Origin: Amyelois transitella
Lineage: Eukaryota; Arthropoda; Insecta; Lepidoptera; Pyralidae
Assembly (NCBI RefSeq): GCF_032362555.1
Contig: NC_083513.1
Coordinates: 1,550,001-1,614,000 of the forward strand
Direction of reading: 5' to 3'
Length of the DNA stretch: 64,000 bases
How positions within the stretch are numbered: position 1 is the first letter of the stretch; every line of letters begins with the position of its first letter. Below, one piece after another: positions 60-63,268 of the stretch. A model generated the notes under the pieces. The model worked only from the letters and a program-made list of their open reading frames with translations, ran no database searches and had not been told where the DNA came from. The position numbers and the translations under genes were made by a program.

Positions 60-74
60 TTAGAATTAAGAGAG

Positions 75-3966: not shown

Positions 3967-3997
3967 TGATTAAAATTGGCCAATAAACTTGTGATTC

Positions 3998-4271: not shown

Positions 4272-4506
4272 ACATATGATCACGTCTATATCACTTCGGG
4301 GTAGACAGAGCCAACAGTCATCAAAAGACTGAAAGGCCACGTTCAACTGTTTGGCTTAATGATAGAATTGAGATTTCAATAATGACAAGTTGCCCATCGC
4401 CTAAATGAAGCAACCCAATTTTTTTAAAGTCTTAGTCGCCTTTTACGACATCCATGGAAAAGTGATGGAGTGATCCTATACTTTTCTAATATTTGTACAG
4501 GGAACC
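4272..4506 (-). repeat. SINE-A copy, nearly full length
   Basis: Antisense copy running from ATCACGTCTATATC through GGGGTAGACAGAGCC to the TACAGGGAACC end. A 3' fragment of the tRNA-derived SINE follows at about 4521-4640. Confidence 0.7.
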
Positions 4507-5024
4507 TATTTTAAATATAGTATTGTTGAGTATCTATAGTATCTCGTAACACAAGTTTCGAACTTACTTCGAGGCTAACTCAATCTGTGTATTTGCCCCG
4601 TATATATTTATATTTATTTATTTATACTATATATTTGGCGTGTGGAGCAATTCAACTAAATATCTTATTTATAATCACGCGTAACTACACTGTTTATTAC
4701 ATCACAGACAGCCAAATGATTATGATAATTTGGCTTAGCTAAACGCAAAATCAGATGAGGTTATCTTCAGAACTGAACATTGGTATACTTACTTGACTGC
4801 CCTTATTTACAGGTCGGTGACCCAACACGATGATACGATTATATTTAGATAACAATACAGACTTATTTCTTAATTAAAACAAAAAAAAATCTTGAATGAG
4901 CGATAAGGGAATGAGGCGAAACGGGTGATGTGTCTGTGAAGGCTACAAATTGGAGAGAATAGCAGATCTCAATTTGTTTAATTGTTTTTATTTAGCGAGG
5001 CTCAATAGTTTTGTTTTTATTATT

Positions 5025-5295
5025 GAAACTAGCTTTCCGCCCGCGGCTTCGCCCACGTGTAATTCGGTTATATATAGCGTTTTTTAATGATCTCGACAGG
5101 GCTTTTTCTTCCACAGGCTGAAATCTTGTTACAACTGGAATTAAATATAGCCTGTGTTACTCAGGGATGATGTAGCTTTCTAATGGTGAATGTTTGAAAT
5201 CGATTCAGTAGTTTCGGAGTTTATCGATTACATGTGTAAACAAACAAACTTATAAAAAAATAGATTGTTCCTCTTTATAATATTAGTATACATAC
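5025..5295 (+). repeat. RTE-like retroposon 3' fragment
   Basis: Starts with CCGCCCGCGGCTTCGCCC and ends with CTCTTTATAATATTAGTATA. This is the 3' architecture shared by many copies in the window (29490, 29965, 60432, 62030, 62975). Assignment to the RTE group of LINEs rests on recall of similar insect 3' ends, not on a visible reverse transcriptase. Confidence 0.5.
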
Positions 5296-5739
5296 AAATC
5301 TATATAGAAAAAGTAATGCGAGACAAAATCATCGTCTCAAAAGAAAAAAAAAACAGGATTTATAGGACGAAGAGGCCTTACAGGATTTCCTTCTGTTTAA
5401 GTATTTGCATCTGATAGTCATCATCCCATGTGAATGAGCTGATGATGGAAGGTACAACTCCTCAACGGTTAGGAGTTGAAAGAAAATTCTTACGAAGTTA
5501 TACGTACATGTGAGGCTATTAGGTTGACCTGATAATAAAAAGTAAATCTCATTAACGTTAAGAATTTAGGTGAAAATGGATGCGGACAAATTTCGTCTCT
5601 TCACTTGTTTCCTTTTAGCTGTTTGTATGGGTAGTATAATAAAATAGGGATTTAAAGGCGTGATGTTATTAATGTTATGCATGTATGTACATAATTATGT
5701 ATGTTATTATGTATGTTAAAGAGACGACTGAAAGTTGTC

Positions 5740-6370
5740 ATACAAAGTCTTTTTTTTAAGGATGGGAAATCATCAAATGACCTCTCCCGCTCTGGGTGGA
5801 ACGGGAGGGAGTGTCAGACTTTTACTGACTAAAACCCACCTCGTTCCTTCAGTTGCCCTTTGCGTTCCGGGGCCACGGTATCTCGTTAGAACTTTCCCGC
5901 AGCCCCGGCTCAGTTTATCCCGTTTCCCCCCCTTGGGGGTTGACATTTCAAAAATCCCTTCTTAGTGCTCACTTATGTTACTAAAGGAACCTCTGTTCAA
6001 AATCTCAGACTCCTATACCGAGCGGTTTCGGCTGTGCGTTAATAAATCAGTCACCCAATCGCACCCCCTAAATCACGATTGGAGGGTAGTTTGAAAAAAC
6101 TTATAATGTCAAACATATTTACTTGCCTATGTACGTGTTCATGCCAAGTTTCAAGTTTATAAACCCAAGGAATAAGATTTTTCATAGAAACGTTTTTACC
6201 CCTTTTCCCCCCCTTGGGGGTTGAATTTCCAAAAATCCTTTCTTAGTGCTCCCCTACATATCCCAAGGAACCTACATTCCAAATTTCAGCTGTCTACGAC
6301 CAGTAGTTTCGACTGTGCGTTGTCTGTCAGTCAGTCACTCAGTAACGGAAGAGTTTTATATATATAGATT
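5740..6370 (+). repeat. Interspersed repeat, non-coding
   Basis: Contains two related segments with TTTCCCCCCCTTGGGGGTTGA (about 5922 and 6206), each followed by CAAAAATCC..TTCTTAGTGCTC, so it is an internally duplicated repeat. The end GAGTTTTATATATATAGAT resembles a retroposon tail. The 76-residue open frame near 5735-5965 lies wholly inside it. Confidence 0.5.
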
Positions 6371-6531
6371 GAAGAACATAGCTGCAAATCGTTAATTTGT
6401 TTATTTATTTTTATTAGCGTGGAGCTCAGTGCCCATTGTTTTAACATCTAGTTTCAAGTTAAAATATAAATTTAACGTGATTACATATATATTAAGGATT
6501 AATTAGATTAAGATATAAGATAAAGATAAGG

Positions 6532-6692
6532 ATTTGAGATTCCTCTTTTAGGCGATGGGCTAGCAACCTGTCACTATTTGAATCTAAATTCTATCATTAA
6601 GCCTTACAGCTGGGCATGGCCTTCAGCCTTTTCATGACTGTTGGCTCTGTCTACCCCGCAGGCAAAATAGGCGTGATTGTATGTATGTGACA
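6532..6692 (+). repeat. SINE-A copy, 5'-truncated
   Basis: Sense copy from GATTCCTCTTTTAGGCGATG to GTGATTGTATGTATGTG. Confidence 0.7.
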
Positions 6693-6944
6693 TATATATT
6701 TTGTTTTTGCTTTTTACGCTAACTTCATAGTAAAGATTTTGAATGAGTAGGTACTTTTAAAATAATATGTCGTTTCCCCTACTTATTTAATTTGAAGTCG
6801 TGTCTATATTATGTGTCTTTTTAATTATTATTTTATTGTTAATTATTGATCTTTCACCATTGCCATGGAATAAAATTAGTGACAAAAGTTACCTCCTATC
6901 CTTAAAGATTAAAAGATGTTTAAAAAGGTATATTAAAACCAAAC

Positions 6945-7012
6945 ATGCATACATAAAATCACGCCCGTTATTTCTTGGTAAGGTAGGTAGAGACTACGTC
7001 TTTCCTTTAGCA
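6945..7012 (-). repeat. LINE-C 3' fragment
   Basis: Antisense 3' tip of LINE-C, starting at the CATACATAAAATCACGCC tail. Confidence 0.5.
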
Positions 7013-7597
7013 AGAAACCCTGAAAATTCCTTCGATTCATTCACATTTATTAAGGGACATTATCGACTACAACGCCATCTATCAATAACACTTGTGACCA
7101 CAGATGGCGCACGCGCACATGAGACAAAATTGAAAGGAAAGACATACTATCAGATTATTATGGCGCACGCGCACATAATAATCTGAAAATAGAGACGTCA
7201 TGATTTTTTTTAAGTGATCCCAAATCCTAATCCCAACTTCTACTGAACTGGTAACGTTTTTACGAAACTTTTTAGACGTTTAACTTGTTACATGAATAAA
7301 TTGAAAATAACTTTATCTTTCTATGTTCTTATCGGCTGCAGTGAGGTGGTCAGTTATTTTTAAGACTGTGTAGATTCAGGTCAGACTCGAATCAGTTTCA
7401 TTTTATTTTTATAAAAAACCTAGCTTTACCCACCGGTTCCGCCCATGAAAAGTACCCCTTTATCCTTCCATACTATATGTAATTGTAAATATACAAATTG
7501 TCACGGACATCGGTTCCGTGGTTTTGACGTGGAAATACTGCAAACAAATACACAAAAGCACGTTCACATTTATAATATCAGTATGGATTTAGAAATA

Positions 7598-7802
7598 AAT
7601 ACGAACATACAGTCACGTCTATATCCCTTGTAGGATGGACAGAGCTGCTCAGCTTCAACTGTTTGAGATTCAAATAGTGACCGGTTGCTAGCCCGTAGCT
7701 ATAAGCTAGTAAGAAGGATCCCAAGTTGATTAGCATTTCCCATAGTCGCCTTTTACGAAATCCATTGGTATGATATGGAATGATCCTATTCTGATGTGCT
7801 GG
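7598..7802 (-). repeat. SINE-A copy, diverged
   Basis: Antisense copy from CAGTCACGTCTATATCCC to about GATCCTATTCTGATG, with several internal deletions. Confidence 0.65.
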
Positions 7803-10800
7803 GATAATTAAAGATACGGAACTACTTAGTATACAGTGGGTTTATCATGCCTATGCCTAATGGTCTGAAAAATGTAGGAATAGCGTTTTTTTATTTATAT
7901 CCGCAGCAGCTTTACCTGTATTTGTTAGCGAGAAAATAGATTTATTGTGTATTTATGTTTTTTAATATAAGAGTTGCCTCTTACGATTTAGTATTTCTAT
8001 TATACTCCACCTTTTACACTTCGCATGTTATTAGGTTTTATGTTATCTTAGATAGGTTCTTAAATGGTCTCTGGTAGTTTTTATTTTCAGCCAAAGCGGT
8101 GAAAGGTTTGAGATTGATATTCACGGGAAGCTTATTAAGTTGTCTAAGTTCTTTTTGCCTTTTTATGAGCACTATCTTCCTTTCTCCTTCTCTTAAAACA
8201 CCTCTATCCTGAATAAAAGATAAAAGACAATATATTTTGTCTAAATTGTCATCAAACAAACATTTCTCGAATTTTCGTCAGTATTTCGGCAACAATAATA
8301 CAAACTTACATAATAATTGCGTTAAAAGTTTAAACAAACAGTTAAAAATATACTAGATTAGTGGAAAATAACAATCCATAACATATACATTAGGTATATT
8401 CGTTTGATTACAGTGCATCATTGTTCGTGAATGTTTATAGTAGATGCGATTATATCTCGAACGACCTTTTAAGATAAGCAATGGACAATTATTGTCCATA
8501 GTTTCTGGATCATTGCGTTTATTGATTTGATAAGATTCTTTGACGCTAACTCAAAACAATGACGAAGTAAAGCGCATGTCACACTGGGAGCTAAGGTCTC
8601 GCTAGCGATGTGGGCGCGACCAACAATATAAAAAAGAACTTTAAACAATGTGATGGCCGAAGAACCACGGCGGTGGTGCAATTAGCTTGAAAACCTTTGA
8701 AATCATGGTGTATAATTCCGTGTGCTTTTTGGGAGTAATCTTCAGTAACGAATTAAGTAATTAATTATGTACTCGTAAGTACTTATATGTCTTCTGAATA
8801 AAATTTAGAATTAGAATCAAGTTTTAGAAGCGAACATTACGAAGTCCCTTTCTACTTAACATTTTTTATTTCCATTAAGCACAAGAATCGGAATAATAGA
8901 ACGCTAATTTTGAGTGAATTTAGACTAATAGCTGCTTACATGACCACATGCACTATGCTGAAATATATGTGAATGCTTCACAGAAATACGATGTATAATT
9001 ATTATGTTTGTTTTATTTTCTCGACCTCCGAGTCGGTTTCTTGTCGAATTCCCGTCCTGAAGCCTTCAGGAAGAGGGAGATTCGATGTCCCCTTCAATAA
9101 ACATACTCTTTTCTAATACTTTAAATATAATAACAATATTAAGTTACATAATTATAAATCTTTAAATATCTAACTTTTTAATGTTGAATTTGTACTTAGC
9201 TAGCTGACATAGCTCCGTTCTTTGTGACAACGTCCTAATCCGTTATTTCATTGCATAAACGCAAGCCTACGTAATTAAAACAAAACGTAAGTACATTCGT
9301 ACTAACAACGTGGGGTTTATTTGTAGGCGAAAGTTTCCTCACAAAACAACTGGAATTTAGCAGAAATATAACTACGTCAATTGTTACGGGTGGCATATAA
9401 CAAATACGCATCAATTTCCCTTAAGTTTATGACGTAGACGTTACGAAACCATAACTGTATCAAATACGACAAAGCTAGTTAAACCACAGATTAAAAAACG
9501 TTGTGTAAGTTTTACACGTATTACCATCAATCGGTTAGATATACAACTTTGTATGATCAGTCTAATTCATATCTTTTGTAGTTTGTAAAACAAAGAAATA
9601 AAAATAATGTAAAAAAACAATAACATTATAAAGCTGTACCTGGGCGTCAAATGGGTACCTTACCTATCTACTAATTTCAGAAGCCCGTGACCGCCAAAAA
9701 GTAGGTGTATTGTGTTGAATATAAACTATGTGTGTATACACTTCTTCCATTTATAATTTTTTGAATATTTTTATAAAATAGATAAAAATAAAACAAATTT
9801 CATAAGTTCTTAATATAATTTATTGCAGACACGACCAGTAACCCCGCATAACTGGGGCCCGAGTCTGGCCAGCAAACGCACAGTCCATATTATATACAAA
9901 CTCAATTTCTATATCACCTGCACCGACAATATACAAACTGTGACGATTGTTCAGAAGACTCGGTTCCCTTTTGGTGTACGACCCACGTTATAAAATATGC
10001 CTATTATTTACATGTAAACTAGAAACTTATAATAGTAAATAAATAAACAAAATCCGTCTAGAAACCAAGTGCGGAGGAGTACGAGGACTTGGACTAAACG
10101 AGCGAAGTTTTCGAGTAATAACTAAGAGTAACTAAGCTTTCAAGAGTACGCATGGCTTGTGTTTAACAAAAAATCACGATCAGACAATTAATTTTCTGTT
10201 TTCGGTGAAAAATCTTTACTTAACAAGTAAATACTGAAAAAAAAAAAAAAAAAAAAAAATTGAATTTCAATACCTCCGCTCGTTTCGCCGCCCATCAATA
10301 ATTAACTAAACACAACTATGTAAGTTCAGCTTCCAGTTTAAAAGTACACGAGATCATTTATTTTTATATGCAAGAATCATATACGTTATCTTTTGAACAC
10401 AGCTGGTGTGATTCATGGTTTTTTTTTTCTTTCATCACCAAACGGTTAATAAAGCACCGCATTCACTAGGCGACTTTTGCGGTAACCTATTAAATTAACG
10501 AACATAATCTTCGTTATTGTTTACTCAGAAACTCAAGATTTTGGAGGCAAAATCATACTCAAAGCAAGTCTGTTTAAAGTTTCTAAAGCAGAATAAATGG
10601 TCAATTCGATCTGAGATACAGGTTTAGGTTTAACCCGCGGAAAAATAACCAACCTGAAAAAGCAATGCATACCATTATGGTTACGATTACGTAATGGTTA
10701 TGGTTCGTGTACCTTACGTAGGTTTCCAGATGGGTTATAGGTCTCACGGTCCAATCACTGGGAATACGGCTGTGACCGAGACTTGAAAACTTTGTGATAA

Positions 10801-12660
10801 TTCCAAGCCTACATATTTGAGAGCCACTATGCTCTCATATGTACAACCAGCGGCACATCAACCTACCCAAATTCACTGCAAATTGATCTCGTCGTAAAGT
10901 TCCAGGGTGAATTGATATACGGTTGAGTGCATGTTAAATTGAATGATGAATAAGGAACATATCCTTATGTTAGAAAAGCGAAACAATAAAATTTTGGTAT
11001 ACTCACAAAATAACTGCCTAGTGAATGTGATGTCAAAAGGCACAGACTAAAATTGAAATAGACAACATAAATGTATGAAAAGCGGGCCACATAACTAGTC
11101 GTATTAAGTATACTGAGTTTTAATAATTTACGAAATAATGAACAAAGATCTCTAGAAAGGTTCAATGTAGAATAAATTTCTAGGCTTTTATTAATACGAC
11201 AGTTAATACGTTATATGTATAAATTGCGTTGTCTATTTCGATTTATGTCTATGCCCGAGGTAAACCTTCATTTGCTTGTCAATGAACAAATGGTAGATCA
11301 CCACAATATATATAAGATCTTACAATCTTGGCGTATTATTACAAATTAATAATAATAATAATTCCAAATATTTACATTTAAGTAAATTGAAATAATTTAA
11401 TCTACTTATTACATTACAATTTCTTAATAAAACGGTGATACTGAATTCATATATCAACGAACAAATATTACTTTGAAACATACTCTGAAATTCATCATGC
11501 ACAATATTATGTATGTGAAATTGATTATGGATTTCTTGAATTTTTCGTTGTAATAAATAACAAGTGACATGTATGTAACAAATTAATGAATATTTATTTA
11601 AAATTATAAAGTAGGTATACCAAAACTATTCGAGTGAACTGTATACCAAACATTAGTAAAAAGACAATTTTATGGGTGAGATAAACTTAATTGTCTATGA
11701 GGGGGCTAGTTTGCGTTTCATCCGCAATATAGCTCTCTCTCTCTCATCTGCGTGTTCCCGGTTGCACCCTCCACAGAAGTGTTTCGGGGCCCGGTGGTCA
11801 CCTATCGACATTTCTCTCTCCACTTGGTCACCGGCAATATAGCGAGGTATGCTATATTTAAAGCTGTAACCCCTATAAAAATAGTGGGATACGATAGAAA
11901 TAAGATAGGTTACTATACATAAAAAAATATGTTTATGTTAGAAATGTCATGAATGAATTCTTAACTTAAATAATATTATACATACATACTTGAAAGGTAC
12001 AGTGTAGATATTTCAAGTTATGTTCCAAAGCTTTATTTAAAGGTAAACTCCCCCCTTGTTATTGGCAGTTTTGTGAATCCTACGCCAACGACTTAAAAAT
12101 ATATATAAAGTTAAAGTCACATTAAAATCACTTTTAACAAAAAAGTCAACAACGAATGTTATGTCATTGCACAAATTGTAGACGCATACAAAGCACTAAT
12201 AAATTATAATAGGACGGCCCTCATAACGTTGAAACCTTAGACCATTTAAAGACAGACAGCCTCAGAATCGACAACCGACCTATACTTGTATTAAATTGCA
12301 TTTATTTTAATCAAGTATGTGACAATTTCTCTATACATATGCGAACATTTCATTTTAACTTTTCGTTTCATTCAACCAATCATCAAAATCAAACAAATAG
12401 AAATAATAATTTTAATCTCAACATGGCTTCCCTGCCGGTATCGCAAAAATGGCATTACATTATCCTTGATTATTAAAAAAAAAATTAACATAGATAAACG
12501 AAAGAACATTACATTTCACACTAGTGTGTGAGTTGTGCGTGAAATCGTTTTTTTTTCTAAATTCAAACAGGTCTATCAAACGGACATTTTCTATAGTTGA
12601 CTATGACTTGCTGGCATGGTTACCAGGAATTCGCTTCTTTAATATTTCACTTCGGACGCT
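7803..12660. other. Intergenic, no gene seen
   Basis: No credible coding exon on either strand. It includes a 24-base A run near 10236-10259 and a small CT-rich stretch near 11730. Short open frames here lack splice context, codon bias or family motifs. Confidence 0.55.
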
Positions 12661-12667
12661 CATATTA

Positions 12668-12862
12668 AAGCCAGATTTACATTACGAAATTATTTGCATG
12701 ACAATTGTTTTACAAAAAATATGCGCATAGCACGAAACTACTCCAGTTTCACAAAAGTAATGCATGAATTGTAAAACCGAACGTCTACACGTGAAATTAC
12801 TGGTCAAATTACTTTTATCAAACTAATTTCAAGCCACTGATTTCGTAATGTAAATCTGGCTT
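12668..12862. mobile_element. MITE with 23-bp perfect terminal inverted repeats
   Basis: The ends at 12668-12690 and 12840-12862 are perfect inverted repeats starting AAGCCAGATTTACATTACGA. The 195-bp element has no coding capacity, so it is a miniature non-autonomous DNA transposon. I could not settle the target-site duplication. Confidence 0.75.
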
Positions 12863-12869
12863 AGGTAAT

Positions 12870-14940
12870 ATTATGTGACGTCAATTACATATATAGGGGT
12901 TCTCTGTTGTTAAATAAATAAACCGAAACTCATGAAATAATATCCGTTTAAAAAGACTTTTCTGCTTAGAACTAGTGCACTTTGTATGCGTGTAAAGGTG
13001 ATGTTTCACAACTACAAAAACTGTCAAAGTATTTTTCTACTACTTACGCCAAACTTAAAAACGAAATTAAGTATATAACAATACAATAGAAATAAATAAA
13101 ATTAAACTAACTAATTAAGATTAATATTATGTTTCCCGTTAACAAAACTTGTGATAAAAAAACACACACACACATGTGGTATGGTATTGTTAGTATTTAA
13201 AACAAAAAGGTTGCGTGCAAGTTCGACCTCATTGGACCATAAAAAAAGTTCATTGATTATGTCAAAAGGTCAGATTTGAAAAAAGTTTTTTTAATAATAT
13301 TAATAAAGAAAAGAATATGACGATGGCCAAATCTGAGTCCACCAAATTGAGCTAATAACCGGCACGACCGTACCATCCTTTGCTGGAAGTAATTCAAGCC
13401 CTTAGAAGCCCCGAGTCAATCTATTTATTTAAAATGTAAAAGTTTTTCAATATTGATGTGATAGTTACTTATGTAATCCATTAAGACGGAAGTTCCCTTA
13501 AGTAAGGACTAAATTAATTAACCCACTTGGTATTACATGGATCTCACAACTTTACACGGTAGAAAAACTGTTTTTTTTTACATGAAGATTTTGACAGGAT
13601 AATTTTGTCCGGTGCCAATTCAAGGTTGAAGTAAAAAAAGGCGAATATAATTGAATTGCCCCAATATTAAACATTTTAAATTTAAATTCAATAAAAAAAT
13701 CCGTGCCGCCATCACGTGAGCGATGGCGCAACATCAACCACTATTGTTTCATCCGTCTGTCCGTTCATTGCGATAAGATCTGACCTTATTCTGTTTTATT
13801 TTAAGATCCGCTAGAGGTCGCGGCAAGCGCATGTCGTTAATTAGTAGAAAAAAAAAATAGGTATTTAATAAAATGCGCCTTTGAACAATGAATGGTCCGA
13901 GTCACGTAGACTTATCGCTGTAATTTTCCATTGTAATGTGTGATAATATATGCTGTAGGTATATATATTAACACTTAGCACATTTTACTTAAGATCAATT
14001 TCATTATTTTTAATAATGAATGGGTTTTATGGTGTACATATATAATAACTAAAAATTATTCGTTATAAACTTTAAGCAAAACTAAAATGAAATGTGAAAA
14101 TAAATACCTACTCAAAAATTTTCGATCGTGGGGTAAAAAAAAACAACGGCTAACTCTTATACGCTGAATCGTAACTATGTCCGTATATGTTGTTTATAAA
14201 ACTTATGTAAATAAATAATATATGGTTTGTTAATCAACATTTACTATATTTTCTTCATTTAAATCTGGCGAAATAAAATTTGAACTATTTATTTCATTAA
14301 TTTGCAAATGTGTTAAAAAAACCAGTCGCAACCTCTTTCTTTTTTTTTCAAAAACATTTTTCTTTCATAGACATACATTTTACAGCAATAAAGGCGCTTG
14401 CAACAAATAATGAACACAAATAAAGTCGATTATAAAAGTACAGTCAATAACATATTATTATATCATATTTATTTAAACCTTGGAATTATAATTTCTTATT
14501 ATTGTTTTTTATTAAAAAGACGTTTTAAGAGCTGAGACAAAATCCGCAAGGAGTTTGTTTGTCTTTTCATATATTCAAAACTTACTTAAAATGTATTCTT
14601 GAATATTGATTGCTGTATTTCCCGACATCTTTTCCTATTTGAAGTAGTCAAAGTCAATATACAAATTCAATTTTACTCTAGTTTTACTTGACTTCCCTTT
14701 GCAAATCTTCGTAAAAATCTGCTTAAGAAAAATATTAAAGTAATTTTAACCCGAAATTTACAGAATCGTAATGAATGTGATGGAAAAATACCGCACTTAG
14801 ATAACACACGTAGGTACAGTCAACCGCATATCAATTTTAACCTCTGCTCTAAATATCATGAAATAATGATTGTGAAGGTGATATGAGCATGACTGTACCG
14901 ATATTTAAAACATTAAATTTTTTAGATAATTACATACTTA
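12870..14940. other. Intergenic, no gene seen
   Basis: AT-rich, with scattered homopolymer runs. I see no gene or recognisable mobile element. Confidence 0.5.
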
Positions 14941-15068
14941 CAAAATCACGCCTTTTTTTCGGACCACGTCTTTCTACTTGCCACGATCTTTGCATACTTC
15001 TTTCGCATCATACACTCTCATCATCCAACTCTCTTTATGCAAGCTCACCGGTTTCAGGTACTCTTGAC
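14941..15068 (-). repeat. LINE-C 3' fragment
   Basis: Antisense copy from AAAATCACGCC to CAGGTACTCTTGAC, the 3' coding tail of LINE-C with several substitutions. Confidence 0.65.
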
Positions 15069-15582
15069 AATAGACAATTTAAATTAATTTTATTCCATTT
15101 TTAATTAAATGCAAATCTCTCAAATCAGATTCTAGGATAAAAAAAATATCTACCTACGCACTAAAAAAATAATGTGAACTTAAAATATACCCATATTTTT
15201 TTTTTGTTAATTTTTTTTTTATCTTCTTATATTAATCAGTTTCAAATAAACATAAAGATCGATCAGATTTTATATCTGAAATTAAATATAATTTTCCTGC
15301 CAAGGTAGACCGCATTTTAATTCACATTTTCTTTACAAATTGTGAAAGTTTTTTTTTAAATTGATTGTTAGTTTTTGTTTTTAAAAGACTTCATCGATAT
15401 TGTATTTCTTGCAAGCACCTTCGCTTTAGGAAAGATTTCAAAACAAAAAAGTTATCAGTGACGGAAAATAAAAATGTTATTTAACGTGTTGAATTAAAAA
15501 ACATATATAATAATAAATAAAAGTTTTGTATAGCGGGGTACCTATACCGAAATGCCCTTTCAATTTGACTACTGTACATAGC

Positions 15583-15846
15583 GCCGCCTTACAGAGTAAA
15601 ATGTAAGCTTTCCGTCAACCAATCATGTCCGTTACTTTCAAATCACACGATCTCATTGGCTGATTCGATAAATTAAATTACGAACGCGTTCTTTTGTGAA
15701 TCTCTGTGATCTGTTGCCGCGAAAATTACTCGCTTATTGGAAAAAAAATTGATTTATACAATTCTTTTTCAAAACCATTTTATTTTAGAGTAATCATCTT
15801 TTATCAGACATATATATTGACGATACAATCAGCTCTGTAAGGCGGC
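15583..15846. mobile_element. Candidate MITE with 14-bp inverted ends
   Basis: GCCGCCTTACAGAG at 15583-15596 is the exact reverse complement of 15833-15846. The 264-bp interval has no coding capacity. The outer flanks show no clear target duplication. Confidence 0.55.
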
Positions 15847-16201
15847 CGCCATCAATTTATTAACAGCAAAATGCATTTTCTATACTCCGTTACAATATAC
15901 ACACTTGGTCCAGTATTTACACAATTAAATTTGAAATTTACCTACTATTTACATATTTTGAACGTTACTATACAAAACAACAAAATATCGTCCAAGAGAC
16001 AAACCGTGTAATCAATTGAAATAAAAATATATATTAGCATCGGCAATTACAAACCAATTTTCAACTTCAGAATAACGTATATATATTTTTTTTTATCAAG
16101 TATGTTATTGCTTTTATTTTCCAATTAAACTTTGTCTCTATTTTGAGGTAAACGGCAGTATTGACGGTAAAATCATAAAATTTTATTTGTATTCAAAGTA
16201 T

Positions 16202-16279
16202 TTTAATAGTACAACTCAAGAAGAAATATTGTAGGTATAATTTAATAGTACAACTCAAGAAGAAATATTGTAGGTATAG
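16202..16279 (-). repeat. 39-bp direct duplication downstream of the zinc-finger gene
   Basis: Two tandem copies of a 39-bp unit containing AGTACAACTCAAGAAGAAAT begin near 16202 and 16241. They lie in the likely 3' UTR or flank of the zinc-finger gene. A possible AATAAA signal on the minus strand lies at 16182-16187. Confidence 0.7.
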
Positions 16280-16395
16280 TTTAAAATAGACTTATTTAGA
16301 TGCTTATTATTATTAATTACCCAAGTTTTAGTGACACTGGACAAAGACATGAAACAAATGTCAATACTGCCACCACCTATCACTTGTCTATGAAA

Positions 16396-19300
16396 TTAGG
16401 CCTCCGTAGCCACCGATTCCCTGGTGTGGTGTATTTTCACATGTTTATTATGATTGGACTTATTGCTCGATGTCTTACCACATATATTACACGAGAACGG
16501 TCTAGCTCCGCTGTGGACCTTCATGTGTTCGGATAAGTAATAACTTCTATGGAATGACTTACCACACTCGGGCACCTTACACACATACTTCTTGGCCATT
16601 TCATGTTCTCTAACATGCCTCTGACAGTTATATTTCCTTATGAATTGGCATCCACAGTAGTTGCATGTGTACGGTTTGACTGACTTGTGAGCGTTCATAT
16701 GAGATATATATTCGGTTTGACGGATGAAGGCTCCTTTGCATAGGGTACATTTGAAGGGCTTCGCTGAACGGCTCATGTGGGTCCATCGGTGGAGTTTGAG
16801 GTTCCATTTGGTGGTGAATGCCTTGTTGCAGATTATGCAGAGGAACGGTCGCTTGCCGCTGTGGGTTTGAAGGTGGGCACGGAGGTTTGTTCTGAGGTAG
16901 ACCTAAGGAATGGAAATGTATTATTTTATTGGTACTCATGGAAGAGTATGGTAGTTTGGAAGGAATTGTTTACGAATGTAAATTTGAAGTTTGAAGGTTG
17001 AATCAAATATTTTTAGATACCTACCCTTTTTTAACCGGACCAGTAGTATTAAGGTGGTACATACCTATATATCTATTTCAACATACATATAAATCACGCC
17101 TTTTTACCGGATGGGTAAATAAGGAATGGATTCTTAGCAAACTCAGTGTAGTGTGTTTCCCGGCACCAATACAAAAAAGAAAAAGACCACTCCGTCTCAT
17201 TCCCATTGATGTCATAAAAGGCGACTAAGTAAAAGGCTTATAAACTTGTGTTTCTTTTTTCTACGACGTGCAAGCAACCTGTCACTATATGAATCTCAAT
17301 TCTCTCATTAAGCCAAACAGCTGAACGTGGCCTATCAGTCAAGACTGTTGGCTCAGTGTAACATATACATGATTAAATGTAAGTAATGTAAAGTACCCAA
17401 TGTCCGACAGACCACCAATGATCGACACATAAAAAGTAAAATAAAAAAAGGATATACTAATGTTGTGTATTTGAACGTAAACGAAGCATAGGTTATACAC
17501 AAGGTTCATCCAGCTCTCATTGCAAGTGTCACTTTCTACATTCGGTTATTTTGATAAAAATGGTGGAGCTTTAAATATCGACCGGCAGAAGTTTTTAACG
17601 GAAAGCCAGTTTTATTAGTGAAATCACTAAGGAGGTGAGTAAGGTTTATTGCTCATAACTTTTTTCGGTTTAAAGCTACCATTTGAAAATTTTAGGCTGG
17701 GTGCACGATTAATGGACCATTAAATATTGGGTGTCCATAAATAGAACATGTCGATTACTAGATCTCGATTATTGGAACATGTCGAAAACCGGTTGTCGGT
17801 AAATGGATTTCTGCAGTCGAATATTAGGCCAAAAATACCATAAATCTATATTGGTATATCTTGTAAATTTTTATATCACATTCATTTCTACTTTAATATA
17901 TCATGCAAAATACCCTAAAATTTTACTCAAAACTTCAAAATATGATAAAATAATAAAAATAAAACAAATATTGTAAAAATACTAGAGTTCGTGCGTTAAA
18001 GTGTCGATGATTGGGGGTTTTACCGTATGTCTCCGAATGCAGATATAACCGACCTGCTTGCAGACGGGGCACGGCACGTTGTCCACGTTGCCGCGCCGCG
18101 CCGCCGTGTAGCACTCGTGGTGGGCGTGGGACATAGACATGATGTATGTCTCTCAATACAAATATCACCGACCTGCTTGCAGACGGGGCACGGCACGTTG
18201 TCCACGTTGCCGCGCCGCGCCGCCGTGTAGCACTCGTGGTGGGCGTGGGACATAGACATGATGTATGTCTCTCAATACAAATATCACCGACCTGCTTGCA
18301 GACGGGGCACGGCACGTTGTCCACGTTGCCGCGCCGCGCCGCCGTGTAGCACGCGTGGTGGGCGTGGGACATAGACATGATGTATGTCTCTCAATACAAA
18401 TATCACCGACCTGCTTGCAGACGGGGCACGGCACGTTGTCCACGTTGCCGCGCCGCGCCGCCGTGTAGCACTCGTGGTGGGCGTGGGACATAGACATGAT
18501 GTATGTCTCTCAATACAAATGTCACCGACCTGCTTGCAGACGGGGCACGGCACGTTGTCGGCGCTGCCGCGGCGGGCGGCCGTGTAGCAGTCGTGGTGGG
18601 CGTGGGATATAGACATGATGTATGTCACCGACCTGCTTGCAGACGGGGCACGGCACGTTGTCGGCGCTGCCGCGGCGGGCGGCCGTGTAGCAGTCGTGGT
18701 GGGCGTGGGACATAGACATGATGTATGTCACCGACCTGCTTGCAGACGGGGCACGGCACGTTGTCGGCGCTGCCGCGGCGGGCGGCCGTGTAGCAGTCGT
18801 GGTGGGCGTGGGACATAGACATGATGTATGTCACCGACCTGCTTGCAGACGGGGCACGGCACGTTGTCGGCGCTGCCGCGGCGGGCGGCCGTGTAGCAGT
18901 CGTGGTGGGCGTGGGACATAGACATGATGTATGTCACCGACCTGCTTGCAGACGGGGCACGGCACGTTGTCGGCGCTGCCGCGGCGGGCGGCCGTGTAGC
19001 AGTCGTGGTGGGCGTGGGACATAGACATGATGTATGTCACCGACCTGCTTGCAGACGGGGCACGGCACGTTGTCGGCGCTGCCGCGGCGGGCGGCCGTGT
19101 AGCAGTCGTGGTGGGCGTGGGACATAGACATGATGTATGTCACCGACCTGCTTGCAGACGGGGCACGGCACGTTGTCGGCGCTGCCGCGGCGGGCGGCCG
19201 TGTAGCAGTCGTGGTGGGCGTGGGACATAGACATGATGTATGTCACCGACCTGCTTGCAGACGGGGCACGGCACGTTGTCGGCGCTGCCGCGGCGGGCGG

Positions 19301-22300
19301 CCGTGTAGCAGTCGTTGTGCGCGCGCCGCACGTGCCGCGTGAGCGAGGCGGCGTGCACGAACTTGTCGCTGCAGTAGAGGCACGCCTTGGGCCGCTCCTC
19401 GTGCGTCTCCGCGTGCCACTGCAGCTTGGCGCGCGAGTGGAACACCAGCCCGCAGCGGCACACGAAGTCGCGCACCTTCGCCTTCTTCTGGAAGTGGTGG
19501 CGGTCTCTGGGGGTGGGGGGGGGGTGGTACAAATTTGTTTGTTTATTAAGTATTAAAGTAGTAGTATTATAGTTAAAGGAGTAATAATAAATACATATGT
19601 TCTGGTCGATAATAGAAAAAAATAATACGCTCCAGCTCTTGCCCGTGGATTTAGTAAAATGCTACTAAGGGATAGGTTTATAAACTTGGATTTTGTCTTT
19701 AAGTATAAAATGAGTAAAGTAGTAAAAGTATAAAATTATACCTTTCATAGACATAGAAAAAAAAGTGGACGGTGTGTGGCTTGAAAAAAAGTGAAGCGCC
19801 GTAATGGCGGCATTGTACGCATGTGTGAGCAACATTAAACATGTCATTTAGTGAGACGTAATGGCGGCCGGCTGTCACACTATTGGCGGGAGTGCGTGCT
19901 TGAGGTGTGTATATACACTATTTGTGCTTCATTTTTCCGTATAGAAAAAACTCCGTCCGGCGTTTTTTTTTCTATGTGTATGCCCAAATACGATAGAATT
20001 GTAAAGTGACTGTAGTTACCTGTGCTGCACCATGTTGGAGTATCTGCGGAAGGTGTCGTCGCACACGGTGCACTTGACGGGCGCCCGGCCCGTGTGCGCG
20101 TTGTGGTGCTCCATCAGCTTCTGCCGGGTCACGAACCGCTTCTCGCACACTTCGCACCTGGTCATTGTGAACAAGGTTAACATGGTTTGGTCATGTGGAG
20201 AGGATGAATGAAAGCAGTTTGACTAAGCAGTGGGAAGGCTTAGAGTGACATATCTTAATCGCATCTGGTCATTGTGAACAAGGTTAAGACGGTTTGGTCA
20301 TGTGGAGAGGATGAATGAAACCAGTTTGTCTACGCAGTGGGAAGGCTTAGAGTGACATATCTTAATCGCATCTGGTCATTGTGAACAAGGTTAACATGGT
20401 TTGGTCATGTGGAGAGGATGAATGAAACCAGTTTGACTTAGCAGTGGGAAGGCTTAGACGGACATATCTTGATCAAATTAAGAATGGTCAGGTCAAAAAA
20501 AGGGTCAGGTCAAGAGTACCCGAAACCGCCGAGCTAGCTTGAAGAGATTAATTAATGTGGAGGAAATGAAAGAAGTATGCAGAGATCGCGGCAAGTGGAA
20601 AGATGTAGTCTCTGCCTACCCCTCCGGGAAAAAAGGCGTGATTTTATGTTAATATCACTACACATTATATTGTATTTATGCTCGTATCTGGGAAAGTTGT
20701 GGACGGAGTTGAAATATTTGGAAAGAAGGTTTTCTGAGGAACGTGCGAAGCCGGGGCGGGTCGCTTGTTAATGTGAACGGTTATTGTCCCTGTTTGAAAT
20801 GTTGAAAAAAGGGGTGAAGGGAACACATTATTTTTTATGTATGTAAAGCGTTACATACATATAAAATAATGTGTTTTCGCCCCAAAGTGATTGGTAGTAC
20901 CCGCCCCACCTTCGCACGGTTATCATTTATAGAAATAAATCTTCATCCAACATCCCTTTTTTCAACATTTCAAACAGGGACAATAACCGTTCACATTAAC
21001 AAGCGACCCGCCCCGGCTTCGCACGTTCCTCAGAAAACCTTCTTTCCAAATATTTCAACATAAAAAATAATGTGTTTTCATCAAAATTAGATTAATAGTT
21101 CGAACGTTATCGCTATAACTTTCGAACTGTAAATCTTATTTTGATGAAATTTAAAATGTTTATATTATAAAATGAATTTCTTAAGTTCGTGGTGAATAAA
21201 ATCGCTCGATTAGTTTTTGAGATATTCACAAAAGTTTTAGTACATTTGTATCTACGTACTTGTAATTCTTGATTCCCAAATGCGTCTTCATGTGCAGCGC
21301 TAGGTTGGCTCGCCTGAAAAAACACTTCCCGCACGTGAGACACTCCAGCGGGTGGATTTTCAGGTGGGCGTGGAAAGACAACTCCGTCAGCTGATCCACC
21401 TGGAATTTTTACATTTATGTTGGCAACACTGACAAATTACAGGTCGAGAGATAAACAGACAAATTATCAATGTGGATGAAGCGAAAGAAGAAAACTAAAT
21501 AAATATATACGGGACAAATTACACAGATTGAGTTAGCCTCGAAGTAAGTTTGAGACTTGTGTTACGAGATACTAACTGAACGATACTACAATAAATACTT
21601 ATATAGATAAACATCCAAGAACCAGGCCAATCAGAAAAAGTTATTTACTCATCATGCCCTGGCCGGAATTCGAACCCGGGACCTCCGGTGTCACAGACAA
21701 GCGTACTACCGCTGCGCCACAGAGGCCGTCAAAACTAGAACAATGTACTAGTAAAAAAATAAAGGTTACGTTACATGCGCGTTTAAAACCTCGGTATTAT
21801 ACAGGGTGACTATAAAAATGGGCTCAAACAGCTCAGAAGCATGGGTATAGTCTATGTTTAAAAGGATGCAGTTGTTTTAAATGTCACCCTGTATTATAAA
21901 CATAAAATTAACTTCAACAACTCAACTGACCTTGCAAGTGGGGCACACATAGTCCTTCCTCCTCCGTTTGGGCTCCTGTTTTATTAGAGCTTCGATTTTG
22001 GGCTTGGCCTCGTTCATAACGTCGTACACTTGCAGTATTGTAGTCGCTATTGTCTTCTTTGAGTCTAACGTAAGCAGTGTACCTGAAAATATTTACGATT
22101 ATACATTGTGTTCGCTGTTCCAACCAGTGTTTGTGGAGAGATATTGCTTCATGAAAAACAATATTGTCGAATCGAAAGTCTTACTATTAATAATTTTAAA
22201 CAATAATCTATACTTATATTATAAAGCTGAAGAGTTTGTTTGTTTGAACGCGCTTATCTCAGGAATGTCGCCTAAAAGAAGAATCCCAAGTTTATAAGTA

Positions 22301-25300
22301 TATCCCTTAGTCGCCTTTTACGATATCCACGGGAACGAGATGGAGTGGTCCTATTCTTTTTTTATTGGTGCCGCGAACCACACGGCAAATTCACGAATTC
22401 TTAATTCACGAGACGAGAATTCGTACAACCTCTCTATGAAACAAGCCCCTACAGAAGGTACCATTGAATGATAACTTACTGGTTGGCAAGCTTTCTTCAA
22501 TCTTCTCCTCCTTCTTAATAGTTCTAGCAGTCACCATTCGGCTGTAGGAGGTCTTGGTGGAAGAACACGTGGGTAAAGCGTGTGCTAAAGACTTGTGGGA
22601 CCGAAGTTCCTTGGGAGATGAGAATTTGGCGCCACATTGAGTGCACGTGCAAAGTCTGCTCTTTGCGAAGCGTAGTTCGTCGCCACTGTAATATAACAAA
22701 AAAAAGTTTAATCTACTTTGAAAAAACATAGAACAAAATGAAGACGAGAGATCTATCAAAATAATTATACAGTTACATTGCAAAAATTACTAACAAAAGG
22801 GTTTAAAATTGTCACAAAAATTCTATTAAGAGATTCTACATGCCTTTAAAATGTCATCAAAATCAGACCCACGTTTCGAAAGTTTACGCGTTACACGCAA
22901 AGTAATTTTTTTTTATTAAATTTTGACAGACGAATAACACTGCATTTTACGTTTCACGCGCGTTCAAATGCTATTGAATGTATGTTTTTACTTACAGGTT
23001 GTCCGCCTTCTCGTCAGGATCTACCTCGGAACCGTCGGACACCCAGCTCTCGCGCGCTATGAGGTCATAGGGCTCCGCTGGCGTTACCTCCGTGTACATC
23101 TGTAACATATAGGTACATGTCATCAAAATACTATCAAACAGCAAAAAAAATTAAAAAAAAAATGCTATGATGAGGGACAGAGAGAGCAAATGTAATGGCT
23201 GGAACGGTTACAAAGGTATAACATGTTCGTTTTAACTATCACAATTTACGATTTAGAAGAAATAAAAAAATATGAAGTGAATGCTTACCCCGGTCCATGG
23301 TGATTCCATATCGCCGTTGCTCTCTTGGCCGCTAAGTTCGCCACGCGGCGGCATCTTCTCGTCCGCGCGGATGTTCAGCGGAGCCTCGCTGCTTCGGCTC
23401 TCACTCAACACGTCCGCCTTGCTGTCCCGCTCACCGCTCTCCTCTCGCATCTCAGAATAATCTATCCCGCTACTCTCCGCTACCTTATAACTCTCGTGTA
23501 CAAAGTTCGGCAACACGAACTCATTCTCCTTCTGAGACGATTCACCCCAAATATAAATCCCATCCTTCTGGGTCTCCTTAGAAAACGACGCTTCCCCGCG
23601 GTCGGTGTCGAACGATTCCACGCGATCCGGTGTGAAGTAATCCGCGTAAATGTTGTCGCCAAAGTAATTGTCGTTCATCATACTGACAAACTGCTTGTTC
23701 TTAGATGTCGCTTCTAGTTCTAACAGCTCCCTGTGATTTGATTCCTCGTCGAATTCATCTCCTGGTAGGTGCGAATACGCTATGACGTTGATCGGCCGCA
23801 ACGTCTCCAACGGCGTCAGGCCACGATTCGACCCGCTGGCTTCGTTGCTAAAACTCTCCTCATTACTGGTATTAACCTCCTCCTTAACCTGCACTACATC
23901 TATACTTGTTGTAAAACTGTTTTTCACAGTGGAGGGTTCAGGCTCTATATCCATAGACTGCTCCTCCGTATCAGCATCAAAATCATGATCATCATTTTGA
24001 TCCTCCTTCTCCACAATCTGTTCCACAGACACAGTCTTCAATTTACTGGTTTTCTCCTTATTTTCAATTTTCTCGGGCTGATGCATTTTATTCATTGTGT
24101 AGTGTTCTGGTGATTTATTAGAAGATGATGCTCTTGGCTCTATCTCAACTTCTATATCATTATTTAGAGGGAAAGGCTTAGCATTCTTTATTTGTAAAAT
24201 TTTCTTGTGCTTCTTTACATAAATGTTATTCAGTCTTAATGTATTATTCCGGTATGTTTTCACAACTGGTTTATTACTAGACGCTACACTGCTGCTACAG
24301 CTTTGACTGCTGTGGGGTTTAGGGGACATTAAGCGGCGATCAGTGGAGTTGTCTCCCTGCTCCGATAACTCACTACACGGAGACACGGAAGGCTTTTCAT
24401 TACATATTAAATCAGGGACTGGACAACTATCAGAGAACTCTGTGTCTATCTTACTATCAACTACTGTGGATTTGTTTGAGTTCTCTTTGTAAGCAGGAGG
24501 ATTCCCCACATTCTTTATCACAGAAAATGTGTGCGAAACTAAACTGTCTGCACTCGATGCAGAGGGCTGCGTGTCTTCTGACAACTGATTGTTATCACTA
24601 TCTTCTAAGTCGGGCAATATCTTCTCAGGAGAAGGGCACCTTTCGGGATAATCTGGATCATTTGAACCCGTCAGATCCATGATTGTGTTGAGCATATTCT
24701 TATGATGCTGAACAGGCACTTCGACCTTTATGTTACTGAGAATTTTGAGACCTTTCGTCGTAACTGCCGAGTCACTTTTAGCTTCTATTCGTTCAGTTGG
24801 TGCGTTGTCATTGCCGGATTGACTAGAGCTAGGGGTGCTGGGATCAGGTTGAGGTAATGTTGTGCTCGACACTGCTTCATTGGCAGGTGCTTTAGACACT
24901 ATTGGGGCCACTTCTATTATTAGAGTTTTATTTGCATCACGGCTGGATAAAGTCTTATCAACATGGCTTGAACTTGTATTAGAGGTTGTGGTGAAAACAG
25001 TAGAATTGCAAGCCTTTGGTATGATTTGCTGTGGTGTAGTATACATACATGAGGAATTCCCAAATTGGTCCACAACCATCACATTCTGATACACGGAACT
25101 TGTTTGGGCTACATTAGTAACATTCTCGTGGCTGGTCAATACCGCAGGTATGCTCGAAACGAAAGGTTTACCATCAAGGTTATGGACCATTTCTTGGTAT
25201 ATAATTTGCGAATTTTGAGTAACAACAGTTGTGCCCGGTGTAAAAGCACCTGTTGGGATCTGACTGAACTGGCTGCTAGGAATTGCACCGGATATACATT

Positions 25301-26123
25301 TTGTATCCACCATCTGTCCAGTGGGCAGACTGTTGCTCACGATCATGTTATTCTGTATGTTCTTATGAAGGAATGTTCTACTCGTAGGAACTACCACATG
25401 CATTGGCTTCACGCTTGGTGCTATATACTGAACACCACTTACGTTTGTCTTCACCAGTATGTTATTTGGTTTAGGCATAACCTTAACAATGTCTGGGCCC
25501 CTGCTCTGTACCGGAGGGAGCAAGGTAGTCTGCAATTTGACAGCAGGGCCTGCAGCTGGCATGTTGTGACTGAACACAGCAGAATTGCTATTGAGGGCAG
25601 TATACTCTGCACTCCTTGAATATTTGATCTCCCTGTCATCCTGTGGATCTTGCATGTAAATATATTGTTGTTCAAATTCAGGTATAGTGGGATAACTGTT
25701 TTGTACTCTATCAGTTTTCATGACAAATGGTGCTCCACTGAACTGATTAGCATGAGTTGATGTATTACTTTCAAAATTTATATCACCAATTCTTATATCT
25801 GGTGTGGCATTTCGAGATGAACTCAACACTGAATTTGATTTTGGAGGCCTACTAGGAGTTCTTCTCCAATATTTATCATGGTCGGAGTTGCGATGTGAAC
25901 TATTCCATCTATCCTCGGTGGTGGCTGGTGTCCTAGAGCGACTCCTATAGGAACGCTCTGAATGAACAGGTGTTGATGTTCTACTGCCATAACTGCTACC
26001 TTTGTTGGCCAAACTACACAATGCTTTAATAACCTGGTCTTTGGGATGCGTATCTAAATGAGACTCCAAGGTCATACCATTATGTAGAAAAAGGGTACAA
26101 ACTGGACACTGCTGTTGGTCCAT
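16396..26123 (-). CDS. C2H2 zinc-finger protein, 14 fingers, 8 coding exons (1445 aa)
   Basis: Probable nuclear DNA-binding regulator. Coding exons in transcript order: 26123-23289, 23099-22996, 22685-22480, 22082-21931, 21399-21260, 20157-20020, 19506-19251, 16902-16396. All junctions are GT-AG and the phases agree. Translation starts at the ATG at 26123; an in-frame TTG upstream is not a start and a stop lies just before it. Finger 1 is at residues 6-26 (CPVC..HLDTH). Residues 30-940 are a low-complexity Ser/Thr/Asn-rich region with an acidic patch. Thirteen further C2H2 fingers fill roughly residues 990-1430. Several are split by introns, including CPVCKQ joined to VYLRTNLRAHLQTH; one finger has C-x-C spacing. 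I do not recognise the orthologue. Exons 6 and 7 have boundary-spanning tandem duplications. It is divergent from EMC2. Confidence 0.9.
17085..17130 (-). repeat. LINE-C 3' tip
   Basis: Short antisense 3' end of LINE-C (ACATACATATAAATCACGCC) in the last intron of the zinc-finger gene. Confidence 0.5.
17148..17382 (+). repeat. SINE-A copy
   Basis: Sense copy, antisense to the host gene, from GTGTGTTTCCCGGCACC to a TGATTAAATGTAAG tail, inside intron 7 of the zinc-finger gene. Confidence 0.75.
18035..19320 (-). repeat. Twelve-copy tandem array of an exon 3' end plus splice donor
   Basis: The segment containing CTGCTTGCAGACGGGGCACG starts at 18054, 18173, 18292, 18411, 18530 (119-bp steps) and then 18633, 18736, 18839, 18942, 19045, 19148, 19251 (103-bp steps). 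The copy at 19251 is the real 3' end of zinc-finger exon 7; the other eleven lie in the following intron, each repeating the last ~65 coding bases and the GTCGGT donor. The seven 103-bp units are nearly identical. The four distal 119-bp units form a second sub-family, coding RGNVDN where the main exon codes RGSADN. No good acceptor precedes the units, so they are probably not separate exons. Overlapping short frames on both strands are artefacts of the array. Confidence 0.9.
20158..20650 (+). repeat. LINE-C 3' copy with a 107-bp triplication touching a splice acceptor
   Basis: Copies of CTGGTCATTGTGAACAAGG begin at 20158, 20265 and 20372, then continue into the standard LINE-C 3' tail (AGATCGCGGCAAGTGGAAAG, ending GCGTGATTTTATG). 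In the sense frame it reads like LINE RT C-terminal sequence (RFGHVERMNE.., QWEGL..). The first copy abuts the acceptor of zinc-finger exon 6 on the other strand (AG at 20159-20158). The repeated segment begins with about 9 bp that match the exon end, so the duplication spans the boundary. Confidence 0.75.
20708..21059. repeat. Nested long inverted repeat in a zinc-finger intron
   Basis: Arms of about 109 bp at 20708-20816 and 20951-21059 are almost perfect reverse complements (both carry GCGAAGCCGGGGCGGGTCGC or its complement). Inside lies a second palindrome, 20822-20876, around ACATACAT/ATGTATGT. A third short inverted repeat follows at about 21077-21152. Together it is a probable foldback element or inverted duplication. 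Confidence 0.8.
21495..21728 (-). repeat. tRNA-derived SINE
   Basis: Antisense to the window and sense to the host gene. The 5' part is a tRNA-like head with an A-box-like TGGCGCAGCGGTAG and a B box GGTTCGAATTCC. A tail follows ending near GTGTAATTTGTCCCGTATAT. The sequence after the head is the same as in the copies at 46759, 53179 and 60200, so it is a pol III retroposon and not a tRNA gene. Confidence 0.85.
21800..21893. mobile_element. 94-bp MITE, TACAGGGTGAC ends
   Basis: TACAGGGTGAC at 21800-21810 pairs with its exact complement at 21883-21893. TTA flanks both sides (21797-21799, 21894-21896), so a 3-bp target duplication is likely, as in PIF/Harbinger-type elements. It lies in an intron of the zinc-finger gene. 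Confidence 0.65.
22268..22385 (-). repeat. SINE-A copy, 3'-deleted
   Basis: Contains only the 5' half of SINE-A, from GGTGCCG back to CGCCTAAAAG. It joins at 22203-22262 a fragment of the RTE-like repeat (TATATTATAAAGCTGAAGAG). Confidence 0.7.
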
Positions 26124-27377
26124 GTTGAATGTGGACAATGACGTTTTGTCTCAGAACCAGTCGCGGATTAAAAATCAATTAATTCTGTCACAGCGCACTC
26201 CCAACCAGCCGCCACATCTCACAATGTTCGTGACGCGCACGGCTACAATATGCACACAAGGATCCTGTACTATCCACAACAACACATATCTTCGTCGTAA
26301 GTCGTCACCTTATCGATCTGTCAGAGAAAAAAAAACAATATATTAATACAAACAACAATTCCAAATAACTGTTAATTCAATAAACGATACGCACGTAAGA
26401 CAAAAGAAAACAAAAGGTAACAATAAAGGCCATTGAGTTATAAAAAACTTAAGCTTTTAGGAACATTGTATTCATACAGAACAAACGATGATTAACAAAG
26501 GATTCATCCACATGAGGCTTACCTTATTGAAACAATTATCATGAAATATCCATGGCATTCTTAACTTTCCTCAAAGATTAGTTGGCTAAGGTACATAGGC
26601 TTATTCTAAAAATATTTCTAAATAGTCAGACATATTGCAGACATTTCGTTCAGCAGTCAGCTCAGCACATATTACGATCCATTTGACGCAACTACTAACA
26701 AAATGTCACTTGCCTCGCGGCATAGAAATTCTTTTGAAATTAACTCGTTCATTTACAAAATGATGCGTATAACGGAAAATTAAAATTGACTGCTTATTAC
26801 ATAGTGCTGTGCAGAGTGCTGATTAGATTAATACCAAACCAGTATATTTATCACTTTCTTTTTGTTCTATAAAATAAGGGGATAAGTATAATTTCGTCAA
26901 TTCATACTGGTGTCCACTTGTCAGATGCCATTTTGGTTACCTTTACCTATCTTTAGTGTTTAGTTCTCTTTACGCAACCGATTTGAAAAACAATATTTTA
27001 GAAGTTTATAGTTTACGGCTATGCTCATCATAAATTGTTCGATTAATACGTTGTCCTGATTGTTTACAATAAGTGACCAAATTAAATTTTCTCATCGAAA
27101 ATATTTTTGACAGAGCGTAAAAATTTTTTCCTCACGCTCTTTCTATACATTAGTTACTGTAGTTTCTTTGGTGGTTTGGCTGGCATAGTATATTTAGTTT
27201 GTGTGGCTGGCATTGGCTTTATTTAGTTAGTTTAGTGTCAATGTCAAGATTGTCAAGTCAAGCAGTGGGAGTGAATTTGTGATATATACATTTAGTCTAG
27301 TAAATTAAGCAATTTTTTAGTTACTTATTCATTGAGTTTAAATTATAATAAATATCTTCTTTATTTTGTACAATAAA
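26124..27377. promoter_or_regulatory. Divergent intergenic region, zinc-finger gene / EMC2
   Basis: The two start codons face away from each other across 1.25 kb with no recognisable repeat or gene. It must contain both 5' UTRs and promoters, and possibly 5' UTR introns of the zinc-finger gene. A TATCGAT motif lies near 26310. No TATA box stands out. Confidence 0.5.

Positions 27378-48809: not shown

Positions 48810-63268
<14,459 letters not shown>

Follow-up and report, generated by a model that had tools for sequence, protein, structure and literature searches.

Tandem copies of an exon end and its splice donor at a putative zinc-finger gene of Amyelois transitella

We analysed a 64,000-nucleotide stretch of the genome of the moth Amyelois transitella (contig NC_083513.1, positions 1,550,001 to 1,614,000). 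This whole stretch is called the window here, and its own positions are used throughout. Its minus strand carries a tandem array built from the end of a C2H2 zinc-finger exon and the 5' splice site (donor) that follows it. The host gene looks like a moth or butterfly zinc-finger protein gene. Below, we describe the array, compare it with similar arrays in other genes of the same genome, and discuss how it may have arisen.

The zinc-finger array and its host gene

An earlier note on this DNA had described a twelve-fold array made of an exon end and its donor. The array is real: CAG/GTCGGT (the slash marks the end of the exonic part) occurs twelve times on the minus strand behind a single acceptor, and the nine bases CAGGTCGGT are identical in all twelve. 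The first intron bases of donors 1 to 12 are 19250, 19147, 19044, 18941, 18838, 18735, 18632, 18529, 18410, 18291, 18172 and 18053. Donor 1 is the true exon end, and the other 11 are extra. As the note had read it, about 65 coding bases with CPVCKQ are repeated together with the splice site; each unit copies 65 coding bases that end in TGC AAG CAG, followed by the donor. The array thus spans the exon-intron boundary, starting 65 bases inside the exon and finishing in the intron.

Neighbouring donors are 103 bp apart seven times and 119 bp apart four times. The change of period was also recovered by Tandem Repeats Finder, which called 119 bp × 5.1 at 18025-18626 (96% matches) and 103 bp × 7.8 at 18519-19323 (99% matches), the two calls overlapping. 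Minisatellites, or variable number tandem repeats (VNTRs), consist of highly similar units, about 10-200 bp long, arranged head to tail. Head-to-tail units of 103 and 119 bp with these match levels fall within that definition. With its high identity, the array could well vary in copy number in the population.

Two unit types exist, and they carry the coding variants that had been noticed before. Over the shared 65 bases, donors 1-8 follow A-type exonic copies and donors 9-12 follow B-type ones, which gives eight and four copies; one B-type copy has an additional private change. The two types differ at 7 of the 65 exonic positions (none at first, 2 at second and 5 at third codon positions). In the 119-bp units, the intronic stretch is 16 bp longer than in the 103-bp units, and the other intronic differences between units are T/C after donor 18529 and G/A after donor 18632. 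Unit 8 is a hybrid, in which an A-type coding part and donor 18529 are followed by the long intronic form with GATAT changed to GACAT. GACAT is thereby present twice as a direct repeat (GACAT...GACAT), and a 16-bp loss between the repeats gives the short form. Beyond donor 12, a diverged version of the long intronic start can be recognised at first and is then lost, so decay or trimming has affected the far end of the array.

We also used the array as a whole-genome query. Among the best candidates, which were the ones scored, this locus alone was returned. On the basis of this search, which could overlook a relative that is short and diverged, we rejected a paralogous origin of the B-type sequence.

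The exons of the host gene are listed in Table 1. When CPVCKQ is joined at acceptor 16902 to VYLRTNLRAHLQTH, with the upstream and downstream exons joined as well, a continuous C2H2 frame results that terminates in a stop. This continuity makes 16902 a plausible acceptor behind all twelve donors, as had been proposed. The finger formed at the join is CPVCKQVYLRTNLRAHLQTH. The commonest C2H2 spacing is one residue longer, and because of this the exact join of donor 1 to 16902 is likely to be correct but not proven. No Pfam family was matched by 19251-19509 at E 0.001. The acceptor reached from donor 1 is a separate one, about 2.3 kb further along, which favours an intron that already existed over a newly gained one. 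By eye only, no convincing acceptor was seen in the zinc-finger unit, and a stop interrupts the read-through of the array. Farther upstream on the minus strand, a 965-codon open frame (23253-26150) has MDQQQCPVC near its start and no Pfam match at E 0.001; it might belong to this gene as an early coding exon.

The note had held that every donor except the first shifts the frame. The offsets of donors 1-12 modulo 3 are 0, 1, 2, 0, 1, 2, 0, 1, 0, 2, 1 and 0, and the claim therefore fails for donors 4, 7, 9 and 12, which are in phase by length. It is correct for donor 2, from which the last exon is out of frame. In the read-through, a TGA comes shortly after donor 2. Donors 1 and 2 are the only ones without an in-array stop, and splicing at any of donors 3-12 brings a TGA into the transcript. 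In practice, the outcome is thus close to the one claimed. In the tested join, donor 1 alone among the twelve keeps the zinc-finger frame stop-free.

Table 1. Features of the zinc-finger and MCM3 loci in the window.
Feature	Position	Strand	Remarks
Next and last coding exon found	16396..16902	-	VYLRTNLRAHLQTH... to stop; C2H2 Pfam matches; acceptor TTCCTTAG
B-type units (RGNVDN)	18048..18475	-	119-bp spacing; donors 9-12 (18410, 18291, 18172, 18053)
Transition stretch	18411..18529	-	A-type exonic copy, donor 18529, long GACAT...GACAT intronic stretch, then first B-type exonic copy
A-type units (RGSADN)	18524..19250	-	103-bp spacing; donors 2-8 (19147, 19044, 18941, 18838, 18735, 18632, 18529)
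Donor 1, GTCGGT	19245..19250	-	Exon-proximal; putative site in use
Genuine zinc-finger exon, 256 bp	19251..19506	-	Ends CPVCKQ; three-exon join gives a single open zinc-finger frame
Acceptor CAG of genuine zinc-finger exon	19507-19509	-	
Preceding zinc-finger exon	20020..20157	-	Frame runs on into exon 19251-19506; limits from splice-site strings
Acceptor-side array, 107 bp × 3	20152..20474	-	Carries CACAATGACCAG, acceptor of the preceding zinc-finger exon, three times
MCM3 exon (one base + 66 codons)	51848..52046	+	Last 112 bases repeated; Pfam MCM 3.3e-33; best PDB match Mcm3 6raw_3, 1.7e-35
MCM3 donor-side array, 164 bp × 2.9	51935..52412	+	Donors AGG/GTCTGT at 52047, 52211, 52375

Similar arrays at other exon edges

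The arrangement recurs in unrelated genes. By our own tally, five donor-side arrays (in the zinc-finger gene, MCM3, MCM6, a DEAD-box helicase, and a locus called L008) and two acceptor-side arrays were seen in the genome. The tally is a convenience sample: the zinc-finger array was given and the helicase array was found through its coding repeat, so neither comes from a random sample. The MCM3, MCM6, helicase and L008 arrays have a common geometry, with a unit made of exon tail, donor and intron start, and with the array inside the intron.

The MCM3 array lies in the same window. Pfam and solved Mcm3 chains point clearly to MCM3, and the extra exon copies appear as rows in the MCM-family genome search. 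The MCM6 array (L026, contig C22, 2098-3173) came to light in the DNA around another MCM gene; it has 14 donors, CGG/GTGAGC, and all 13 inter-donor 76-bp units are identical. At its end, 11 bases that partly copy the exon start are directly followed by GTCACT, and this may be the trace of a templated insertion from which the array arose. The helicase array on contig C12 was seen in the Helicase_C search as eight rows of one 35-residue range, mostly at 195-bp spacing. Its DNA contains 10 AG/GTGTGT motifs and eight full exonic copies with internal variants, and the exon matches DEAD-box RNA helicases. At one place in this array (L051 1600-1680), two donor motifs are merely 63 bp apart with no full exonic copy between them, which is a deletion or a rearranged unit. 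The L008 array (118 bp × 6), in one of the sampled 10-kb stretches, starts 10 bases inside a probable 45-codon exon and has six donors, CCG/GTAAAT, and internal variants; this exon has no Pfam match, its coding status coming from the open frame alone.

On the acceptor side, a two-copy 70-bp repeat covers the acceptor of the same helicase exon (L051 2290-2430, contig C12). Here and in the array at 20152-20474 of the window, the extra copies are again in the intron. The remainder of the 107-bp unit of the latter resembles, by eye, a retrotransposon 3' end. A different kind of duplication was seen in another MCM gene (L053 1149-1939, contig C9), where an intronic 412-bp tandem duplication, found by exact repeats, stops short, by eye, of both neighbouring splice sites.

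We joined donors of three of these arrays to the next exon, with joins chosen by eye; the tests covered 3 donors in MCM3, the first 4 of 14 in MCM6 and 10 in the helicase. Joined in this way, donor 1 was stop-free in MCM3 (GR/YDQY), MCM6 (VVR/DEES) and the helicase (NNQ/GSV). All later donors tested led to a premature stop (MCM3, 2 of 2; MCM6, 3 of 13; helicase, 9 of 9). The MCM3 profile positions continue from one exon to the next. The arrays in MCM3, MCM6 and the helicase therefore argue that the exon-proximal donor is probably the one in use. For the eight helicase exonic copies, the genuine exon included, the variable sites were 5, 2 and 3 of 34, 35 and 35 at the three codon positions (p 0.47). 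This absence of codon-position bias would be expected for DNA that is no longer read as protein.

These results bear on the suggestion in the note that the array might tune the splicing of a regulator. The extra donors would then compete for U1 small nuclear ribonucleoprotein or yield premature-stop transcripts, and copy number would set the amount of productive zinc-finger mRNA. The nine bases shared by all twelve donors would fit this explanation, and the TGA that donors 3-12 bring into the transcript could feed decay. Splicing-linked intronic minisatellites are also known, as outlined in reports on human TERT intron 6 and C. elegans CeRep25B. However, the same arrangement exists in MCM3, MCM6 and the helicase, which share no function with the zinc-finger gene, and the later donors tested end in premature stops. 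The helicase exonic copies, the only array diverged enough to test, have no third-codon-position bias, and the use of downstream donors finds no support in the data at hand. The suggestion is thus unsupported, and we regard tuning as an unlikely explanation.

Misassembly could also multiply a single copy that is present in the animal, and the 13 identical MCM6 units would by themselves fit such an artefact. However, the two unit types, the hybrid unit and the private variants of the zinc-finger array are hard to obtain from a repeated consensus. Moreover, seven exon-edge arrays have differing unit lengths, and the helicase and L008 arrays have internal variants. An artefact is thus very improbable.

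Another explanation is recursive or cassette use, in which the CAG/GT unit junctions act as both acceptor and donor for stepwise removal, or the units are alternative exons. Each zinc-finger unit does end in CAG/GTCGGT, and junction-to-junction splicing would leave the mRNA unchanged. However, no good pyrimidine tract was seen by eye before CAG. The mechanism also could not be general, for MCM6 (CGG/GT) and L008 (CCG/GT) have no AG directly before GT. We give this explanation hardly any credence.

How often such arrays occur was estimated in several ways. Among 379 rows of scored candidates from protein-family searches (MCM 33, kinase 145, Helicase_C 90, SNF2 39, DEAD 51, AAA 21), tandem rows of the same range at 100-200 bp spacing were found, by reading, in MCM3 and one helicase only and in none of the other families. 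The candidates scored were 130 of 536 for kinase, 48 of 111 for DEAD and 19 of 116 for AAA. This method misses short units, and the MCM6 array did not show in it. In the DNA around the MCM domain at 8 MCM loci, Tandem Repeats Finder found two exon-edge arrays of period at least 50 bp, and exact repeats added the intronic 412-bp duplication in a third locus; shorter-period repeats were left out of the count. In 264 kb (the window and 20 stretches of 10 kb, 18 at fixed round-number positions and 2 beside the window), there were 11 arrays of period at least 50 bp, and 4 of them were on an exon edge by reading. About 0.9 would be expected (Poisson P 0.013; a hand estimate with 100,000 introns assumed). 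With the array flagged at the outset left out, the figures are 3 of 10 against 0.8 expected (P 0.047). The enrichment is a mild excess at best and only a hint, the other 7 arrays not having been checked for exons in detail.

Origin of the zinc-finger array

We consider it quite probable that the zinc-finger array is a near-neutral intronic minisatellite, seeded by a tandem duplication across an exon-intron junction. Because other genes of this genome that look essential have similar arrays, it is probably a by-product of DNA duplication tolerated by splicing and not a switch built for the zinc-finger gene.

The first step would be a tandem duplication of the 65 last exon bases, the 5' splice site and the first 40-55 intronic bases. 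If a duplication begins within an exon and reaches into the next intron, neither that exon nor its donor would be altered, and all extra copies would be intronic. Lying downstream of the unaltered exon and donor, these copies would be transcribed as intron. If the spliceosome uses the exon-proximal donor, as we infer, the protein would be unchanged, and the array would therefore be nearly neutral and free to expand. It would be kept because the exon-proximal site stays intact. A duplication wholly within an exon would often break the frame; junction-crossing duplications would therefore let coding-looking DNA multiply unpunished, downstream on the donor side and upstream on the acceptor side.

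Growth to twelve donors would have taken at least two rounds, with 119-bp units first and 103-bp units later. The note had argued for two rounds from the unit types, and unit 8, which looks like an intermediate, lends this support. The hybrid unit at 18529 suggests that one base change made the GACAT repeat, that 16 bp were then lost, and that the short unit then multiplied beside the exon. Since the short unit would have multiplied next to the exon, the 119-bp form is presumably the older one.

DNA hairpins were rejected as the driver, as the units fold no better than shuffles (z −0.82 to +1.24). The folded units were A and B of the zinc-finger array, those of MCM6 and L008 on the donor side, and one acceptor-side unit, a set that leaves out those of MCM3 and the helicase. 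A bolder idea is that some mutational process in this genome, which may be linked to transcription or splicing, amplifies exon-donor junctions in preference to other sequence. In that case, 3-14 tandem near-identical 5' splice sites would be found in many genes, including essential ones, and the exon-proximal copy would strictly win. This idea is possible, but we hold it to be doubtful.

Several observations weigh against a near-neutral origin. The seven A/B differences are all exonic and concentrated at third codon positions (p 0.066), and the 38 aligned intronic bases have no A/B difference (Fisher p 0.045 versus the exonic part). A plain neutral array would not predict this pattern. One reading is that the real exon was sampled twice, its own sequence having changed from one round to the next (an allele that differed at the exon end may have been involved), and that A and B preserve two of its coding states; the absence of intronic change is not explained by this. 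The use of donor 1 is deduced from sequence and not from RNA. The same nine bases in all twelve donors may be explained by youth alone, and equally by constraint. In addition, no exon-edge array was seen at 20 kinase loci (L031-L050, about 42 kb), which are partial matches chosen from among those listed highest. They contained one array of period at least 50 bp (L036, 67 bp × 2, AT-rich and away from the matched exon), and L046 has a 23-bp × 2 repeat just upstream of the matched kinase stretch, in sequence with stops. Finally, the other family searches gave no array beyond the MCM3 and helicase clusters.

The window also has features outside these loci. On the minus strand, a 988-codon open frame (34802-37768) looks, from its translation by eye, like a non-LTR (long terminal repeat) retrotransposon with endonuclease and reverse transcriptase, and a 462-codon open frame (56977-58365) resembles, by eye, a DDE transposase of the Tc1/IS630 kind. 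An AT-rich tandem array of 76 bp × 4, with a 152-bp higher period, is located at 3572-3915.

Significance and comparison with known systems

Arrays of this kind are natural tests of how one 5' splice site is chosen when its neighbours are identical. MCM6, for example, has a row of 14 identical donors, and the intron-distal donor 1 is needed to make the conserved protein (first four tested). In older minigene work, the intron-proximal site tends to be preferred where strong donors lie close together. Natural arrays in which the intron-distal donor must win would thus inform models of exon definition and first-come commitment. The arrays also show introns lengthening by taking in exon-tail copies, and they call for caution in gene prediction and RNA-seq mapping, where they can give false exons.

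Among the matches listed in a literature search (titles and abstract starts of open papers), there was no report of exon-tail and donor arrays in insects. Related systems are known, and they are compared here as far as the available parts of the reports describe them. The C. elegans minisatellite CeRep25B is reported near alternatively spliced regions. The human TERT intron 6 VNTR, with 38-bp repeats (PMC3948165), is likewise an intronic minisatellite, and its copy number affects splicing, as might be the case here. The available part of that report mentions no copied donor, unlike the zinc-finger array.

Tandem copies of exonic segments have been reported to form introns in fission yeast (PMC3629103) and in the potato RdRp gene (PMC4974935). 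The likeness is that tandem exonic copies end up within an intron. However, the duplication creates a new intron in those cases, whereas here the junction of an apparently existing intron was copied and we claim no intron gain. In the formation of Lipomyces stwintrons (PMC7138796), a donor element is duplicated at the intron start, as in our arrays. The duplications proposed there are of 4-7 nt and lead to nested introns, in contrast to the 100-bp units in arrays described here.

Human genes in segmental duplications have internal tandem repeats at exon-intron boundaries, with units averaging 30 bp × 4, whose reported effects in recent paralogues come about through novel introns or cryptic sites (PMC2812944). 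Both systems have minisatellite-sized repeats across an exon-intron boundary, and in both the copies may be spliced out. The arrays described here differ in their units of 76-195 bp, in the intact donor of each unit, in the inclusion of the conserved MCM3 and MCM6 genes, and in the lengthening of an existing intron. Repeats at exon-intron boundaries are thus already known, and what appears to be new here is the intact donor in each unit.

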